DNA of 50,730 nt from positions 1 through 50,730 of the forward strand of contig JADGOO010000014.1 in assembly GCA_017882905.1 (NCBI GenBank), in the 5' to 3' direction. A program made the position numbers and the translations under genes. Of the stretch, positions 23,040-36,844 are shown piece after piece (the stretch's first letter is position 1; every line of letters begins with the position of its first letter). Under the pieces are notes generated by a model. The model did no database searches, was not told the origin of the DNA, and saw nothing but the letters and a program-made list of their open reading frames with translations. Origin of the DNA: Acidimicrobiia bacterium (lineage in GTDB: Bacteria; Actinomycetota; Acidimicrobiia; IMCC26256; PALSA-610).

Positions 23040-26000
23040 TCAGTGGAAGTCGCGGGATCGCAGGGCCGCGGCGAGCGGGCTCGGGAGGCGCGTGATCCGG
23101 CCCGCGACGAGGTTCGTCACACCCTGATGACGTTCGAGCACGCCGCGCACCCGCAAGGCCGAGGCGCCCCGCGCCACCGTACGGAAGCGCTTCCACACAC
23201 CCTTGCTGCAGATCACGTTGATGAGACCCGTCTCGTCTTCGAGGTTGATGAAGACCGTGCCCTTCGCCGTCTCGGGCTGCTGGCGGTGCGTGACCACACC
23301 CGCCACCTCCACCACCGTTCGGTCGGGCAGCTCGCGCAGCGCGGCCGCGGTGACCACGCCCTGGCGGCCCAGCTCTTCGCGCACGAACTCGGTCGGATGA
23401 CGCCCCACCGACAAGCCCATCGACCACAGGTCGCTCGACACCTCCTCGACCTCACTCATCCCGGGCAGCTCCGGCGCGTCGAGGCCCGGCAACAGGCCGG
23501 GCAGCGTGGCGCGCACCGTGCCGTCGCGCCCCACCTCGGAGCGCGCGTTGCGCAACGCACCCGCAGCCCACAACGCGCGGCGCCGCCCCAGACCGAAGCA
23601 CTGCTCGAACGCGCCGGCCGTGGCCAGCGCCTCCAACGTGTCGACGGTGGCGCCCGTACGGCGCACGAAATCTTCGATGTCGCGGAACGGTGCGAGCGCG
23701 CGCTCGTCGTCGACATGGTCGAGGAACGCATCGTGCAAGCCCCGCACACTGCGCAATCCGAGGCGGATCGCGTGCACGCTTTTTTCTCCGTGATGACCCG
23801 GCAACGGAAGACCGATCGGATCGTCGGGTGGCCGCGGCTCGAGGATCGCGTCGCGACGCGACGCCATCACGTCGGGGCCGAGCACCATCACGCCGTGGCG
23901 GCGCGCGTCGCGGATGATCGTATGCGGCGAGTAGAAGCCCATCGGCTGCGCGTTGAGCAGCGCCGCGGCGAACGCCGCCGGATAGTGGTACTTGATCCAC
24001 GAGCTCGAGTACACGAGGTAGGCGAAGCTCACCGAATGGCTCTCGGGGAACCCGAAGTTCGCGAACGCCTCGAGCTTGTGCGCGATGTCGTCGGCCACCG
24101 CGCCCGTGATGCCCCGTGCCGCCATGCCGTCGAGCAACCGGCCCCGTAACCGGGCCATGCGCTGCTGGCTGCGCTTCGAGCTCATCGCCTGGCGGAGCTG
24201 ATCCGATTCGGCGGCCGTGAAGCCGGCCACGTCGATCGCCATCTGCATGAGCTGCTCTTGGAACAGCGGCACGCCGAGCGTCTTCTCCAGGCACTTCTCG
24301 AGCAACGGATGCGGATAGGTGACCGGCTCCTCACCGTTGCGGCGCCGCAAGTACGGGTGCACCGATCCGCCCTGGATCGGTCCGGGACGGATCAACGCCA
24401 CCTCGATCACCAGGTCGTAGAAGCAGCGCGGGCGCAGCCTCGGCAACGTGGCCATCTGCGCCCGGCTCTCCACCTGGAACACGCCGACGGTGTCGGCCGC
24501 GCACAACAGGTCGTAGACGCTGGGATCTTGGGGGATGGTGGCGAGATCGATGTCGATGCCCTCGGTGTCGCGGATCATGTCGACGGCGAGGTGCAGCATC
24601 GTGAGCATGCCCAGACCGAGCAGATCGAACTTCACGAGCCCCGCGGCCGCGCAGTCGTCCTTGTCCCACTGGAGCACCGATCGGCCTTCCATGCGCGCCC
24701 ACTCGACAGGACAGAACTCCACGAGCGGCCGGTCGGCCATCACCATGCCCCCCGAATGGATCCCGAGGTGCCGCGGGTAGTCGAGCACCTGGCCGGCGAG
24801 CTCGAGCGCGAGCAACGGGATCGACGGCGGGCGCGTGGTGGAGAGATCGGGCACGTCGACACCCGACATCGGTTGGTCGCCGCGCGCGTTGCGCACGAAC
24901 CGGCGCTCGTGGCGGGCCGTGACGCGCTGATGCGGCGCGGCCGCGCCAGCACGTGCATCGGCGCCCTGGCTCTCGAGCAGCTCGTCGAACGCCTCCCGGC
25001 TCGAGCTCCAACGATCCACCCACTTGCCCAACGCGTCGGCTTGGCCCGGTGCCACACCAGCCGCCTTGGCCATCTCGCGCAACGCCGAGCGCGGCCGGTA
25101 CGTGATCACGTTCGCCACCTGCGCAGCACGGTCGCGGCCGTAGCGGTCGTACACGTACTGGATCACCTCTTCGCGTCGCTGGTGCTCGATGTCGAGATCG
25201 ATGTCGGGCGGCCCGTCGCGTTCGGGTGAGAGGAAGCGCTCGAACAGCAGACCGAGCGCGACCGCGTCGGCTTTCGTCACACCGAGCGCGTAGCAGACCG
25301 CGCTGTTCGCGCTGCTCCCCCGCCCTTGGCAGAAGATGTCGTGGGTGCGACAGAACTCCACGATGTCGTGCAGCAACAAGAAGTAGCCGGCGAAGCCGAG
25401 CTCCTCCACCACCGCGAGCTCGTGCGCCATCTGCCGTTGCGCTTGTTCGTAGTGGCTGTGCGTGGGTGGGTAGTACACCGCCGCGCCACGCCGCACGAGC
25501 TCGCGCAACCACGACATCTCGGTGTAGCCGTCGGGCACCGGATAGTCGGGCAGGTTCGGTGCTGCGAGCTTGAGATCGAACGCGCAGGCGCGGGCCACCT
25601 CCACGGTGCGCGCCACCGCGCCCGGCCAGCGCGCGAAGCGACGGTGCTGTTCGGCTGCGCCACGGAGATGCGCGAGCGGGGTGGCCGGCAACCAGCCGTC
25701 GATCTCGTCGAGGCTGCGCCGGGCCCGCACCGCGGCGAGCGCAGTGGCGAGCGGTCGTTGCGCGCTCACCGCGTAGTGCACGTTGTTGGTGGCGATCACC
25801 TCCACATCAGCCTGCAGCGCGATGCGCGCCATGGCATCGTTGCGGTGACGGTCGAGTGGGTCGCCGTGGTCCCAGAGCTCCACGAGCACGCGGTCGCGCC
25901 CGAACGCGGCGATCAGCTCGTCGAGCGCACGGCGAGCCGCCGCCGGGCCGTCGCGCACGAGCGCGCCCGGCACCGTGCCCTTGCGGCACCCGGTGAGCAC

Positions 26001-26465
26001 GAACCAGTGATTCGCCGCATGGGGCGCGACGTACACGGGCGCGACGGCGGCCGCGGCGAGCTCGGCGAGCGTGAGCCGCGGCGCGCCCTTCTGACCGCGC
26101 AGCTGCGCTTCGCTGATCGCACGGGACAAGCGCGCGTAGCCCACGGGCCCTTCGGCGAGCACGAGCAGGTGCTCGCCACCCGGGTCGGCGACACCGTTGG
26201 CCGGCTTCGGCGCGTGGAGCGTGAGCTCGGCCCCGAAGACGGTGAGCAGCCCGAGCGGGCGGGCGGCCTCGGCGAAGCGCACGGAGCCGTAGAAGCCGTC
26301 GTGGTCGGTGAGGGCGAGCCCAGCCAGGCCGAGGCGAGCCGCTTCTTCGACCAGCTCCTCGGGGTGGCTGGCCCCGTCGAGGAAGCTGAAGTTCGAATGG
26401 CAGTGCAGCTCGGCGTAGGAATCGCGGTGAGCATTGAGGTAGGAATCGCTGTAGGAATCGGGCAC
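23040..26465 (-). CDS. dnaE2: error-prone DNA polymerase DnaE2 (mutasome polymerase)
   Basis: This 1141-residue C-family polymerase performs SOS translesion synthesis with ImuA' and ImuB. The N-terminal PHP domain starts AELHCHSNFSFLDGASHPEELV. The palm has GRGSSANSAVCYALG and PDIDLDIEHQRRE around residue 418 (catalytic aspartates), then SHSVSFAYLVYSSSWIKYHYPAAF. The C-terminal OB fold is HRQQPETAKGTVFINLEDETG. Length is typical of DnaE2 and shorter than DnaE1. GTG 26465 is chosen because GGAGAAGGGG precedes it; the longest frame would begin at GTG 26504, inside the LexA box. Its own promoter with LexA operator lies at 26499. imuB and imuA' are 2.6 kb away beyond three rightward genes. Confidence 0.93.
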   Translation of the reverse strand: MPDSYSDSYLNAHRDSYAELHCHSNFSFLDGASHPEELVEEAARLGLAGLALTDHDGFYGSVRFAEAARPLGLLTVFGAELTLHAPKPANGVADPGGEHLLVLAEGPVGYARLSRAISEAQLRGQKGAPRLTLAELAAAAVAPVYVAPHAANHWFVLTGCRKGTVPGALVRDGPAAARRALDELIAAFGRDRVLVELWDHGDPLDRHRNDAMARIALQADVEVIATNNVHYAVSAQRPLATALAAVRARRSLDEIDGWLPATPLAHLRGAAEQHRRFARWPGAVARTVEVARACAFDLKLAAPNLPDYPVPDGYTEMSWLRELVRRGAAVYYPPTHSHYEQAQRQMAHELAVVEELGFAGYFLLLHDIVEFCRTHDIFCQGRGSSANSAVCYALGVTKADAVALGLLFERFLSPERDGPPDIDLDIEHQRREEVIQYVYDRYGRDRAAQVANVITYRPRSALREMAKAAGVAPGQADALGKWVDRWSSSREAFDELLESQGADARAGAAAPHQRVTARHERRFVRNARGDQPMSGVDVPDLSTTRPPSIPLLALELAGQVLDYPRHLGIHSGGMVMADRPLVEFCPVEWARMEGRSVLQWDKDDCAAAGLVKFDLLGLGMLTMLHLAVDMIRDTEGIDIDLATIPQDPSVYDLLCAADTVGVFQVESRAQMATLPRLRPRCFYDLVIEVALIRPGPIQGGSVHPYLRRRNGEEPVTYPHPLLEKCLEKTLGVPLFQEQLMQMAIDVAGFTAAESDQLRQAMSSKRSQQRMARLRGRLLDGMAARGITGAVADDIAHKLEAFANFGFPESHSVSFAYLVYSSSWIKYHYPAAFAAALLNAQPMGFYSPHTIIRDARRHGVMVLGPDVMASRRDAILEPRPPDDPIGLPLPGHHGEKSVHAIRLGLRSVRGLHDAFLDHVDDERALAPFRDIEDFVRRTGATVDTLEALATAGAFEQCFGLGRRRALWAAGALRNARSEVGRDGTVRATLPGLLPGLDAPELPGMSEVEEVSSDLWSMGLSVGRHPTEFVREELGRQGVVTAAALRELPDRTVVEVAGVVTHRQQPETAKGTVFINLEDETGLINVICSKGVWKRFRTVARGASALRVRGVLERHQGVTNLVAGRITRLPSPLAAALRSRDFH
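26415..26460. repeat. three 10-base copies of GTAGGAATCG at the dnaE2 5' end
   Basis: The 10-mer GTAGGAATCG occurs at 26415-26424, 26439-26448 and 26451-26460, with spacings of 24 and 12 bases, both multiples of three. On the coding strand it gives repeated Asp-Ser-Tyr near the N-terminus of DnaE2 (DSYSDSYLNAHRDSY). It looks like a local duplication within codons 2-16 of dnaE2, before the PHP domain. Confidence 0.8.
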
Positions 26466-26498
26466 GGCCCCTTCTCCGCTCGGGCCCGTCACGCTATC

Positions 26499-26510
26499 GA
26501 ACACTTGTTC
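26499..26510. promoter_or_regulatory. LexA/SOS box before dnaE2
   Basis: GAACACTTGTTC matches the actinobacterial SOS box GAAC-N4-GTTC and is flanked by C and G to give a longer palindrome. It lies 33 bases upstream of the preferred dnaE2 start on the minus strand and 30 bases before the metallophosphoesterase start on the plus strand. LexA binding here is predicted from the motif and from the known SOS control of dnaE2. Confidence 0.9.
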
Positions 26511-26540
26511 GCTTCCACAACCCCTCTAGGGTGCAGCGGA

Positions 26541-30826: not shown

Positions 30827-31510
30827 TCACGCGACGATGCGGGCATCGCGCGGCGGGGCGCCCTTGCCGGCCACGTGCGCGTGCACGACCCGCTCCGCGA
30901 GCAGCCCGGCACCCGGTTCCAGCCCTCGCCACTCGACGCCGTCGATCACGATGCGGCGGGTTGCGTCGGCAGGCCAGGCACCGGTGAGCGCACGCGGTAC
31001 CGACTCGAGCGCGACGATGACAGCTTGGCGCTCACGGGCACGGGCCTGCAGCCGGCGCGCGTCGCCGAGCGCCAACCGGGGCGGGATCGCGGCGACCACC
31101 ACGAGCATCCCGTCGAGCAGTGCGCCCACCACCGTGGCCCACCGCTCCCGCGACACTGCCCGCACCACCGCGCAGCGCGCCGGTTCGACCCCACTCTCGA
31201 TGGCGGCGATCCCACCGAGCAAGGAGCTCGCACCGTTGCGGCCCTCGGGTTCCACGAACGCCGCCCATTCACCAGCCGCGGTGGCTGCCGCCGCGAGCGC
31301 GACCGCGGCGCTCGTGGCCCCCGCACCGGCCGGCCCCGTGACGGTGACCACGCTGCCGCGCGGGATGGCCCCGCCGAGCAGATCCCCGAACCGGCCCGGC
31401 ACCGCCAGCACCCGGTCACGAGCCAGGCTCACCGGCGCGGCGCGCCGATCGACCTGGGCCACCTGAGCGAGCTGGATGAGCCGAGCACGGTCGGCTGCGG
31501 CGAGAGCCAT
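30827..31510 (-). CDS. imuA': ImuA' RecA-like mutasome accessory protein
   Basis: This 227-residue RecA/SulA-like ATPase-fold protein of the ImuA' group works with ImuB and DnaE2 in SOS mutagenesis. The P-loop region reads VTGPAGAGATSAAVAL: the glycine-rich loop is present, but the Walker A lysine is replaced by alanine (GAGAT in place of GxGKT), so ATP binding may be weak. ARDRVLAVPGRFGDLLGGAIPRGSVVTVTG is the usual segment before the loop. ATG 31510 starts MALAAADRARLIQL; it is preceded by AAGGTACAGGG and by the SOS box at 31525. Identification rests on fold pattern plus its position next to imuB. Confidence 0.85.
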   Translation of the reverse strand: MALAAADRARLIQLAQVAQVDRRAAPVSLARDRVLAVPGRFGDLLGGAIPRGSVVTVTGPAGAGATSAAVALAAAATAAGEWAAFVEPEGRNGASSLLGGIAAIESGVEPARCAVVRAVSRERWATVVGALLDGMLVVVAAIPPRLALGDARRLQARARERQAVIVALESVPRALTGAWPADATRRIVIDGVEWRGLEPGAGLLAERVVHAHVAGKGAPPRDARIVA

Positions 31511-31524
31511 CCCTGTACCTTACC

Positions 31525-31536
31525 GAACAGGTGTTC
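31525..31536. promoter_or_regulatory. LexA/SOS box before imuA'-imuB
   Basis: GAACAGGTGTTC fits GAAC-N4-GTTC and is extended to CGAAC/GTTCG. It lies 14 bases upstream of the imuA' ATG on the minus strand, overlapping the region where the promoter and leader must be. LexA repression of imuA'-imuB is known in mycobacteria and other actinobacteria. Confidence 0.92.
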
Positions 31537-31573
31537 GCATCTCCAAGAGCGCCTCAGTGCATCCGTGAGGAGA

Positions 31574-32308
31574 TCATTGCAACGATCCGCTCTCGGAGAA
31601 CTCGGGACTGCCGTCGCTGGTGACCTGCGCGGTGATCACCACACTGCCCCGCCGCCCAACCAGGACGATCCTGTGCGGCGCCGCCGCGGGCGCGTATTGG
31701 ACCAGCAACCCGTTGCGCGTGATGGCCACCGGCTTGCCGTCGACGGTCGCGCGAAGCGCGGCGTCGGGTACGAACAGACCCAGCGCGCCGCGTGTCTGCG
31801 TGCCGGTGCCCAAGAACACGCCGTTCGTAGCGAACCGTGATGCAGGAGTAGAGCCGCCGCTCGCGAACGAGTCCTCGGGGTTCTGTCCGAGCACAAGGCC
31901 GATGCCGTAGTTGCCGGGCACGTCGCGGTATCCGTACACGCGGCCGTCGCCGTTGGCGGCAAGCAACCGTACGGTCGACCGAACGGCACCCACGTACAAG
32001 CGTGGCGGGACTCGGAACAGCAACAGGTCGTCGGGTGTCTGCGGTGTCTCGAGCACGGCGGCGCCACCGCGCTCCGGACGATCCGTCGCCACCACTCGTA
32101 CAGGATTCGCCGTGGTCGCGTGAACGGCGGCGATCGTTCCGCCGGTCGCGGCGACGGCGACCAGCATCGCACCGACGGCGCGCCGTCGGACTCGCGTTCG
32201 GACACGACGCGCGGCACCGTCGAACGCGCTCCCGAGCTGATCTTCCGGCACGGCGATCGGGATGCTCAGGAGCGTTCGGAGTGCGACGACGTCGTTGGGG
32301 TCGTTCAT
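31574..32308 (-). CDS. single-pass membrane protein, putative anti-sigma factor
   Basis: This 244-residue protein is encoded directly after the broken ECF sigma gene and starts in the ATGA overlap with that gene's stop. It has a 40-residue cytoplasmic N-terminus (MNDPNDVVALRTLLSIP), an Arg-rich stretch RVRTRVRRR, one transmembrane helix at about 45-63 (AMLVAVAATGGTIAAVHA), and a 180-residue extracellular part rich in beta strands. This order is typical of proteins paired with SigE-like ECF factors in actinobacteria. No zinc anti-sigma HxxxCxxC motif is seen, so the anti-sigma role is inferred only from position. With its sigma partner destroyed, it may be on the way to loss. Confidence 0.75.
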   Translation of the reverse strand: MNDPNDVVALRTLLSIPIAVPEDQLGSAFDGAARRVRTRVRRRAVGAMLVAVAATGGTIAAVHATTANPVRVVATDRPERGGAAVLETPQTPDDLLLFRVPPRLYVGAVRSTVRLLAANGDGRVYGYRDVPGNYGIGLVLGQNPEDSFASGGSTPASRFATNGVFLGTGTQTRGALGLFVPDAALRATVDGKPVAITRNGLLVQYAPAAAPHRIVLVGRRGSVVITAQVTSDGSPEFSESGSLQ

Positions 32309-32572
32309 GGGTGGGCTCTCTCACCAACGGTGACCGAGCTCGCCGCAGCGCGGAGTCGGGCGAGGGCACGGGCGGTCTGACTCTTGACGGTGCCGACCGA
32401 GCAGCCGAGCTCCGCGCTCGACGATGCGCTCCCAGCGCGGCCAGATCTTGGCCAAGGCGGTCTGCACCAGATCCCGGGCATCCGGCCAGCTGCCTGCGAG
32501 CATCCACGCCTGACCGAGGAGCTGACGCTCATGATCGGCGACGTAGCTCCGAAAGCCCGCCGGCTCACGCAT
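32305..32572 (-). pseudogene. ECF sigma factor (SigE-like) broken by internal deletion and frameshift
   Basis: Two frames hold the two ends of one ECF sigma factor. The first (from ATG 32572) reads FRSYVADHERQLLGQAWML, then DARDLVQTALAKIWPRWERI, which is the start of sigma region 2. The second frame reads AELGCSVGTVKSQTARALARL, the DNA-binding helix of region 4, and runs to the stop at 32305. The frames meet near the bases GTCGAGCGCGG around 32415-32425. In intact SigE-like factors (about 160-170 residues) some 80-90 residues lie between these blocks. Those residues, including the rest of region 2 and the linker, are missing, and the frame is lost. The downstream membrane gene is still intact and overlaps the stop by ATGA. 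Confidence 0.88.
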
Positions 32573-32696
32573 CGCCCACGCCCAGCACGGGCGAGACCAG
32601 CTCCTCCACGGGCTTATACACGCACACCCACACCAAGAAGGTTGTCACGCGCGCCATTATCGATCGACGAGGAGACCGCGACAGGACCGCACGCGT

Positions 32697-35294: not shown

Positions 35295-35570
35295 TCAACC
35301 GCACATACTGCACGACGTCACCGTCCGATGCGGTGATCCTCCGGGCTGGCCGTATACGCAGATCGGCGCATTGGAATCGCGAGGCACAACGCACCCGACT
35401 CGCCCTGTACCACGAGATTGTCGACGGTTCGGTGGCATCCACTGATCGCGGCCGGCGATGAACTGGATCACCGCGAGATTCGCATCACGGCCGACGACCG
35501 GCCCGATGCATGCGTGCACCATCGTGACCCGATCGGAGAACAGCGGACCGACCGGCAGGGATGATGTCAT
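35295..35570 (-). CDS. small hypothetical ORF coupled to the HNH gene (doubtful)
   Basis: This is a possible 91-residue product starting at ATG 35570, which overlaps the HNH gene stop as ATGA. The first half (SLPVGPLFSDRVTMVHACIG, then AVIQFIAGRDQ) has moderate GC at third positions. From about codon 46 on the codon use loses this bias, so only part may be real, or the end may be frameshifted. No family recognised. The remaining bases to 35240 show nothing else. Treat as low-confidence; it may be a decayed gene fragment. Confidence 0.3.
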   Translation of the reverse strand: MTSSLPVGPLFSDRVTMVHACIGPVVGRDANLAVIQFIAGRDQWMPPNRRQSRGTGRVGCVVPRDSNAPICVYGQPGGSPHRTVTSCSMCG

Positions 35571-36769
35571 GGCGAGCGGGGTGGGTCGGCTCCTGGGCGC
35601 TGTGCGACGGTGCTGATCGGTTCGCCGTTGGGGTTGGTGATGGTGAGGGTGTGGCCGTCGAAGGTGGTGGTCCAGCCGGGCCGGTGGATGGTGTGGTGGT
35701 GGAACGAGCACAACAGGACCAGATTGTGGAGGTCGGTGTTCCCGCCGTTCTCCCATGGTTGGACGTGGTGGGCTTGGCAGCGGTTGGGTGGTCGTTCACA
35801 TCCGGGGTAGCGGCAGCCGCCGTCGCGTTTCGCTAACGCTTTGCGCATCCATTTCGGGGCGGTGCGTTGCTCGCGGGCGACGTCGAGGGGTTGGCTGTCG
35901 GGGCCGGTGACGATCCGGCTCACGTTGCAGTCGCACAACAGCTGGCGGAGCTGGGCGGGTGAGAGCGTCGGCCCGAACACTTTCGAATCGAACACTGCCG
36001 GCGTCGGCACTGCTGCGGTGATGGTGGTCCAGTCGACTACGATCGACACGTGGGGTGCTTCGCCGGCTTCGAAGGGGAGGTCGGCGTGGTCGAGGTAGAA
36101 GCGCGCCACATCGACCAGCGCATCGGCGCGCCGCTTCGCCGGCGTCCGCTCATCACCCTCGACCGGTCGGCCCATCGCCGCAGATATCGCCGTGTTGATC
36201 ACATGGCCGCCAAGATCGTCGAAGTCACCGGCCTGCGCCCAACGATCCAACGTGTTCGACAGGTGCAGCCCGTTACGGTCGGAAGGTTCGCGTTCGTCGA
36301 GCGCATCCACATACCGCCGGTAGTGGCGCACGACCGCGTGCAGGCTCCGCCACTCGTTCGCCGCCGCATACTCCACGAGGGTCTGTTCCATCTCCCCGTA
36401 CACATCGCCATGCGCATCGACACGGCCCGCGCCGATCACCGCTGCGGCCGATGCGGAGATCTCGCCTTGCGCCCACGCCTTATCGACCAACGGCAACACG
36501 TCACACGCCAGGCCGGCATCCAACGACACCTTCGCGTCACGCCACCGTTGCCCGGTCTGCCACTGCACCCACGCCGGCGTCGACGACGCGCCCGCCGCAC
36601 ACGCGATCCCGCGTTGATGCACCGCCACCAACAACGCCGCGGCGCGGTGTTCCTGACGGTCGATCTCGCGGCGGAGCTGGGCGTACTCGGCGCCGATCGC
36701 CGCGTCGGTCATCCCGTTGACCGCGACGCCGACGAGCTCGTCGACTGCGGAGACGAGCGTTTCGAGCAT
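35567..36769 (-). CDS. DUF222 and HNH endonuclease domain protein (13E12-like), SOS-linked
   Basis: This 400-residue protein has a helical DUF222 domain (about 1-300) and a C-terminal HNH nuclease (about 320-375). The HNH core is CRYPGCERPP, then QAHHVQPWENGG with the His-His pair, NTDLHNLVLLCSFHHH with the Asn and final His; the two Cys pairs probably bind zinc. The family is abundant in actinobacteria and in mycobacteria as the 13E12 repeat proteins, whose function is unsettled. A consensus LexA box sits 16 bases upstream of ATG 36769. It may act as an SOS-induced nuclease; it is often multi-copy and mobile in nature, though no second copy appears here. Confidence 0.9.
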   Translation of the reverse strand: MLETLVSAVDELVGVAVNGMTDAAIGAEYAQLRREIDRQEHRAAALLVAVHQRGIACAAGASSTPAWVQWQTGQRWRDAKVSLDAGLACDVLPLVDKAWAQGEISASAAAVIGAGRVDAHGDVYGEMEQTLVEYAAANEWRSLHAVVRHYRRYVDALDEREPSDRNGLHLSNTLDRWAQAGDFDDLGGHVINTAISAAMGRPVEGDERTPAKRRADALVDVARFYLDHADLPFEAGEAPHVSIVVDWTTITAAVPTPAVFDSKVFGPTLSPAQLRQLLCDCNVSRIVTGPDSQPLDVAREQRTAPKWMRKALAKRDGGCRYPGCERPPNRCQAHHVQPWENGGNTDLHNLVLLCSFHHHTIHRPGWTTTFDGHTLTITNPNGEPISTVAQRPGADPPRSP

Positions 36770-36784
36770 GCCACCATTCTATAC

Positions 36785-36796
36785 GAACATACGTTC
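36785..36796. promoter_or_regulatory. LexA/SOS box before the HNH gene
   Basis: GAACATACGTTC is a GAAC-N4-GTTC operator inside a longer palindrome ACGAACATACGTTCGT at 36783-36798. It is only 16 bases from the HNH start. From memory, several mycobacterial 13E12-type genes are LexA-controlled, which agrees with this site. The 75-base gap to the next gene holds no other feature. Confidence 0.9.
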
Positions 36797-36844
36797 GTAA
36801 CCAAGGGAAAGGGCCAAGCAATGCAGGGTAGATTGCCGTTCGAC

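Follow-up and report, generated by a model that had tools for sequence, protein, structure and literature searches.

The sigma/partner locus at 31574-32572 of the window (the whole 50,730-nucleotide stretch analysed here, which is contig C19 of a 4.36 Mb draft genome) carries, in the assembled sequence, the two ends of an ECF sigma factor gene without its middle. The reading we prefer, with a probability of about three in four, is recent pseudogenisation, in which an accessory SigE-type ECF gene lost regions 2.3-4.1 through an out-of-frame deletion of about 235-245 bp. The deletion is known from one sequence only, in a draft assembly of 259 contigs, and from it we infer that the deletion exists in the living cell. 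The gene immediately downstream, which overlaps the old sigma stop codon and encodes a membrane protein, is intact. The initial annotation had drawn the limits of this pair correctly and had proposed an ECF sigma factor gene destroyed by an internal deletion and a frameshift. The profile searches bear this out, with two family matches in different frames and 78 model positions missing between them.

Both ends of the gene are recognised by the same family model, TIGR02983 (Table 1). The 5' remnant matches model positions 7-55 (44.6 bits, E=1.4e-11), with regions 2.3-2.4 absent, as well as the Pfam domain Sigma70_r2 (24.4 bits, E=2.4e-5). The 3' remnant, read in a frame that differs from that of the 5' remnant, matches model positions 134-160 (29 bits, E=8e-7) and Sigma70_r4_2 (20.8 bits, E=3e-4). 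In a profile search of the genome the two TIGR02983 matches are contiguous on the DNA, at 32411-32557 and 32338-32415, and the frame switch is placed between them, within about 32407-32420. Since two pieces of one family model adjoin each other in order and on the same strand, chance is excluded as their origin. Neither piece reaches the curated TIGR02983 cut-off of 141.55 bits, which says little alone because no intact copy in the same genome reaches it either, the best scoring 133.9 bits. The absent model positions are 56-133 of 162. Measured against 20 intact homologues from the same genome and its relatives, the gap corresponds to 70-88 residues with a median of 82, which agrees with the 80-90 residues estimated in the initial annotation. 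The two motifs quoted there are both present and are joined near 32420. The start of region 2, LVQTALAKIWPRWERI, lies inside the 83-aa frame (32572-32321), and the region 4 helix, LGCSVGTVKSQT, lies inside the neighbouring frame, which runs to the old sigma stop codon, TGA (32307-32305).

Table 1. Coordinates of the broken sigma gene, its partner and the adjacent LexA box (positions in the window)
Feature	Position	Strand	Description
5' remnant of ECF sigma gene	32420..32572	-	ATG, residues 1-51, region 2.1-2.2 up to ...WPRWERIV
Deletion junction	32407..32420	-	GAGCGCGGAGCTC; upstream frame reads ERG.., downstream frame AEL
3' remnant of ECF sigma gene	32305..32412	-	shifted frame, ELGCSVGTVKSQTARALARLRAAASSVTVGERAHP, region 4 recognition helix
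ORF left after the frameshift	32321..32572	-	83 aa; ends 12 bases before the partner ATG
Partner gene	31574..32308	-	intact 244-aa single-pass membrane protein, putative anti-sigma factor; open frame, hydropathy, ATGA overlap
LexA/SOS box CGAACAGGTGTTCG	31524..31537	.	pattern match; lies between the sigma/partner pair and the SOS genes, upstream of imuA

The locus thus shows the features expected of a pseudogene, namely recognisable homology, a disrupting deletion with frameshift, and intact homologues elsewhere. With intact SigE-family (TIGR02983) ECF factors of actinobacteria it shares the family model and the region 2 and region 4 sequences, and over the N piece it is 46% identical to one such member (G002:C123:20660-20797). 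In contrast to these intact genes, it is frameshifted and lacks model positions 56-133. Two frames that belong to one family might also be read as a programmed frameshift, or as a split gene, that still gives a full sigma factor. However, neither frame encodes about 80 of the residues, among them regions 2.3, 2.4 and 4.1, and the same genome contains neither the missing middle as a separate fragment nor a second copy of the gene. No change of frame could restore coding sequence that is absent, and this explanation is therefore refuted; we give it virtually no credence. A consensus scan found no sigma-70-like promoter or terminator. The segment GTGACAACC...GTGTATAAG (32620-32655, minus strand), located upstream of the broken sigma gene, is loosely promoter-like and was missed by that scan.

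Translation from the original start codon would now yield a protein of 83 aa in which the region 2.1-2.2 helices are all that is left of the sigma factor. The promoter-reading roles of the sigma-70 regions are established, and the remnant would be devoid of the -10-recognition helix, of region 4.1 and, owing to the frameshift, of the -35-recognition helix. Judged from its sequence, it could not direct transcription because it retains no promoter-reading elements in frame. The sigma region 2.2 helix binds the RNA polymerase clamp, and the remnant might have acquired a role of its own, for example as a decoy directed at the partner or at RNA polymerase. Such a functional short form would be consistent with the start codon, region 2.1-2.2 and the close spacing to the partner, all of which the remnant ORF keeps, and with the intact state of the partner itself. 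On the other hand, about 29 of the 83 residues are an out-of-frame translation of region 4 DNA. Read in the original frame, this DNA retains its conservation, a sign of a recent break rather than of adaptation. In addition, no conserved short form stands beside a partner homologue in 395 genomes of the class. Conservation of the short form in orthologues, one of the two outcomes that the initial annotation had set against its own proposal, was looked for and not found; the genomes searched contain no orthologue, and the sigma factor of the one related pair, in the relative G001, is full-length. We consider a functional short form very improbable.

The two remnants show little sign of age. The N piece scores 44.2 bits, compared with 26.2-48.7 bits for nine intact homologues cut to the same segment (rank 3/10), and the C piece scores 30.6 bits, compared with 19.6-31.0 bits for the eight intact homologues that match there, the ninth giving no match (rank 2/10). 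The codon-position G+C of the remnants is of the coding type, in a small sample of 153 and 111 bases. Since both pieces score as well as the corresponding pieces of intact homologues, the break is either recent or confined to the assembly. As far as such scores can date it, the deletion is probably recent. It may have arisen at a few bases of microhomology.

The absence of erosion would also be expected from a pure assembly error. In that case, the cell would hold an intact gene, and either ~240 bp were skipped at a G+C-rich, partly palindromic junction or the reads of two strains were joined. The fragmented state of the draft and the unimpaired condition of both remnants fit such an error, as does the position of the junction within a palindromic stretch with overlapping arms (32404-32415). 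However, no direct repeat spans the junction that could have collapsed or slipped. The remainder of the genome bears on the question as well. It contains roughly 45 ECF-type sigma loci, many of them with a single-pass membrane protein as partner, the outer domains of these proteins seeming unrelated to each other, and two of these loci are frame-broken, the one on C19 and G000:C17:6001-6404 (locus L034, 1002-1402 on the minus strand). The C17 gene encodes a SigE-type ECF factor with residues 1-83 and region 4 in different frames; compared with a paralogue of 65% identity, it is short of about 20 linker residues. Its partner is open and encodes a single-pass membrane protein (326 aa, GTGA overlap, no Pfam match). 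This second break counts in favour of the pseudogene reading, but two ECF genes broken alike in one assembly could also mean a systematic fault. Among ~98 SDR loci and 56 loci of the luciferase family in this assembly, no adjacent matches in different frames were seen when the tables were read by eye with contig-edge fragments ignored, and gross assembly damage is therefore not common. An equivalent search of the ECF genes of the relatives G001 and G005 revealed no split in about 70 loci. The difference between 2 broken genes of ~45 ECF loci and 0 of ~150 other loci is a hint at most, as it is not significant (Fisher p = 0.052) and the counts are approximate. Taken together, we regard an assembly artefact as unlikely, albeit with a real chance of being true, and as the main rival of the pseudogene reading.

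The partner gene is an uninterrupted ORF of 244 codons with a coding-like G+C of 0.71/0.55/0.80 at the three codon positions, and its ATG (32308-32306) shares the ATGA at 32305-32308 with the sigma stop codon. The hydropathy of the product has one peak, at residues 44-62, which follows an Arg-rich stretch. The predicted topology places ~43 residues in the cytoplasm, a transmembrane helix at 44-62 and ~180 residues outside. The one clear relative of the partner is a protein on G001:C33, which is 37% identical over most of the length, N-terminus included. G001 belongs to a different genus of the same family, and its partner homologue likewise overlaps an ECF gene, which is intact and full-length. 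Several other ECF genes of the genome under study have the same overlapping-partner arrangement with unrelated outer domains, and several pairs with intact SigE-family factors share the order of sigma gene and single-pass membrane partner with a 4-base overlap. The layout, together with the G001 homologue overlapping an intact ECF gene, makes it likely that the sigma gene and the partner form a regulatory pair. The partner was initially described as intact, overlapping by ATGA and arranged like an ECF partner, and it proves to be so, with an open ORF, one TM helix and a homologue beside an intact ECF gene.

Its description as a putative anti-sigma factor stands in part. The layout and the G001 pair speak for it; a Pfam search of the partner up to E<=10 gave no match, its sequence is devoid of the Hx3Cx2C zinc motif, and a structure model from two sequences, with a mean pLDDT of 30, is too low in confidence to use. 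Class I anti-sigma factors are defined by a four-helix anti-sigma domain (PMC7406223), and recognition from sequence is difficult for divergent anti-sigma factors (reviewed in PMC8999054). With canonical membrane ECF/anti-sigma pairs (PMC7406223, PMC8999054), the locus has in common the gene order, the translational overlap, one TM helix, a short cytoplasmic N-terminus and an extracytoplasmic C-terminal part. Unlike canonical class I anti-sigma factors, the partner has no detected ASDI, zinc motif or Pfam domain, and its cytoplasmic part would be only ~43 residues long. No anti-sigma domain was found, and it is the gene arrangement that makes it plausible that the partner is an anti-sigma factor.

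The pair is sparsely distributed. Among 61 relatives and 395 genomes of the class, one clear partner homologue (in G001) and one marginal homologue were found, and no homologue turned up in two scans of 84,980 species. A profile built from the two partners returned further hits, which were weak, fell on the TM stretch and were set aside, since a neighbouring ECF gene is present for just a single one, in G008 (L093). Neither an ECF gene nor a partner is present beside imuA in eleven relatives, within flanks of about 1.5 kb or less. Since the pair is missing beside imuA in relatives and the partner is nearly missing from the class, the pair is, by this distribution, an accessory locus unrelated to the adjoining SOS cassette.

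In the pseudogene reading, the partner would originally have been translated through ATGA coupling. It may still be made, since its frame is open and the truncated sigma frame ends 12 bases before its start, and it is probably a sensor or anti-sigma factor left without a client. The loss of this regulator should have cost little, because about 45 other ECF genes are kept and the pair shows no conservation across related genera. If real, the deletion is a further instance of decay in a set of ECF regulators rich in paralogues, one in which the sigma gene was lost ahead of its partner. It also calls for caution, as annotation would label the neighbour an anti-sigma factor though its client is gone. 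The initial annotation saw in the locus an early stage of regulon loss or a strain-specific change, and both ideas are hypotheses. A comparable situation is known from Nocardia, where a truncated RskA is found beside an intact SigK (PMC7509140). One member of the pair is broken and the other is kept, as here, but the roles are reversed: in Nocardia it is the anti-sigma gene that was disrupted, beside a sigma gene that is kept. A rule that the sigma factor is always lost before the anti-sigma factor was dropped, since the reverse has been described (PMC7509140). The two broken loci on C19 and C17 could also belong to a wider process, in which the lineage prunes an enlarged accessory ECF set by disabling sigma genes first while the membrane partners persist as orphans, perhaps because an orphan anti-sigma factor is harmless or has found a second client. 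We consider pruning of this kind improbable, at slightly less than one chance in ten.

The SOS genes begin 63 bases downstream of the partner with imuA (30827-31510), followed by imuB. The names rest on gene position and on an IMS domain match in the second of the two. A box similar to the one upstream of imuA is present at all of the imuA loci examined (12/12, from this genome and eleven relatives). The window contains three perfect CGAAC-N4-GTTCG LexA boxes, at 31524-31537, 26498-26511 and 36784-36797. The second is located where a DNA polymerase III alpha-type gene (23040-26504), probably dnaE2, begins. The third is located 15 bases before a DUF222-HNH gene (35567-36769), and this position suggests SOS control of the HNH protein.
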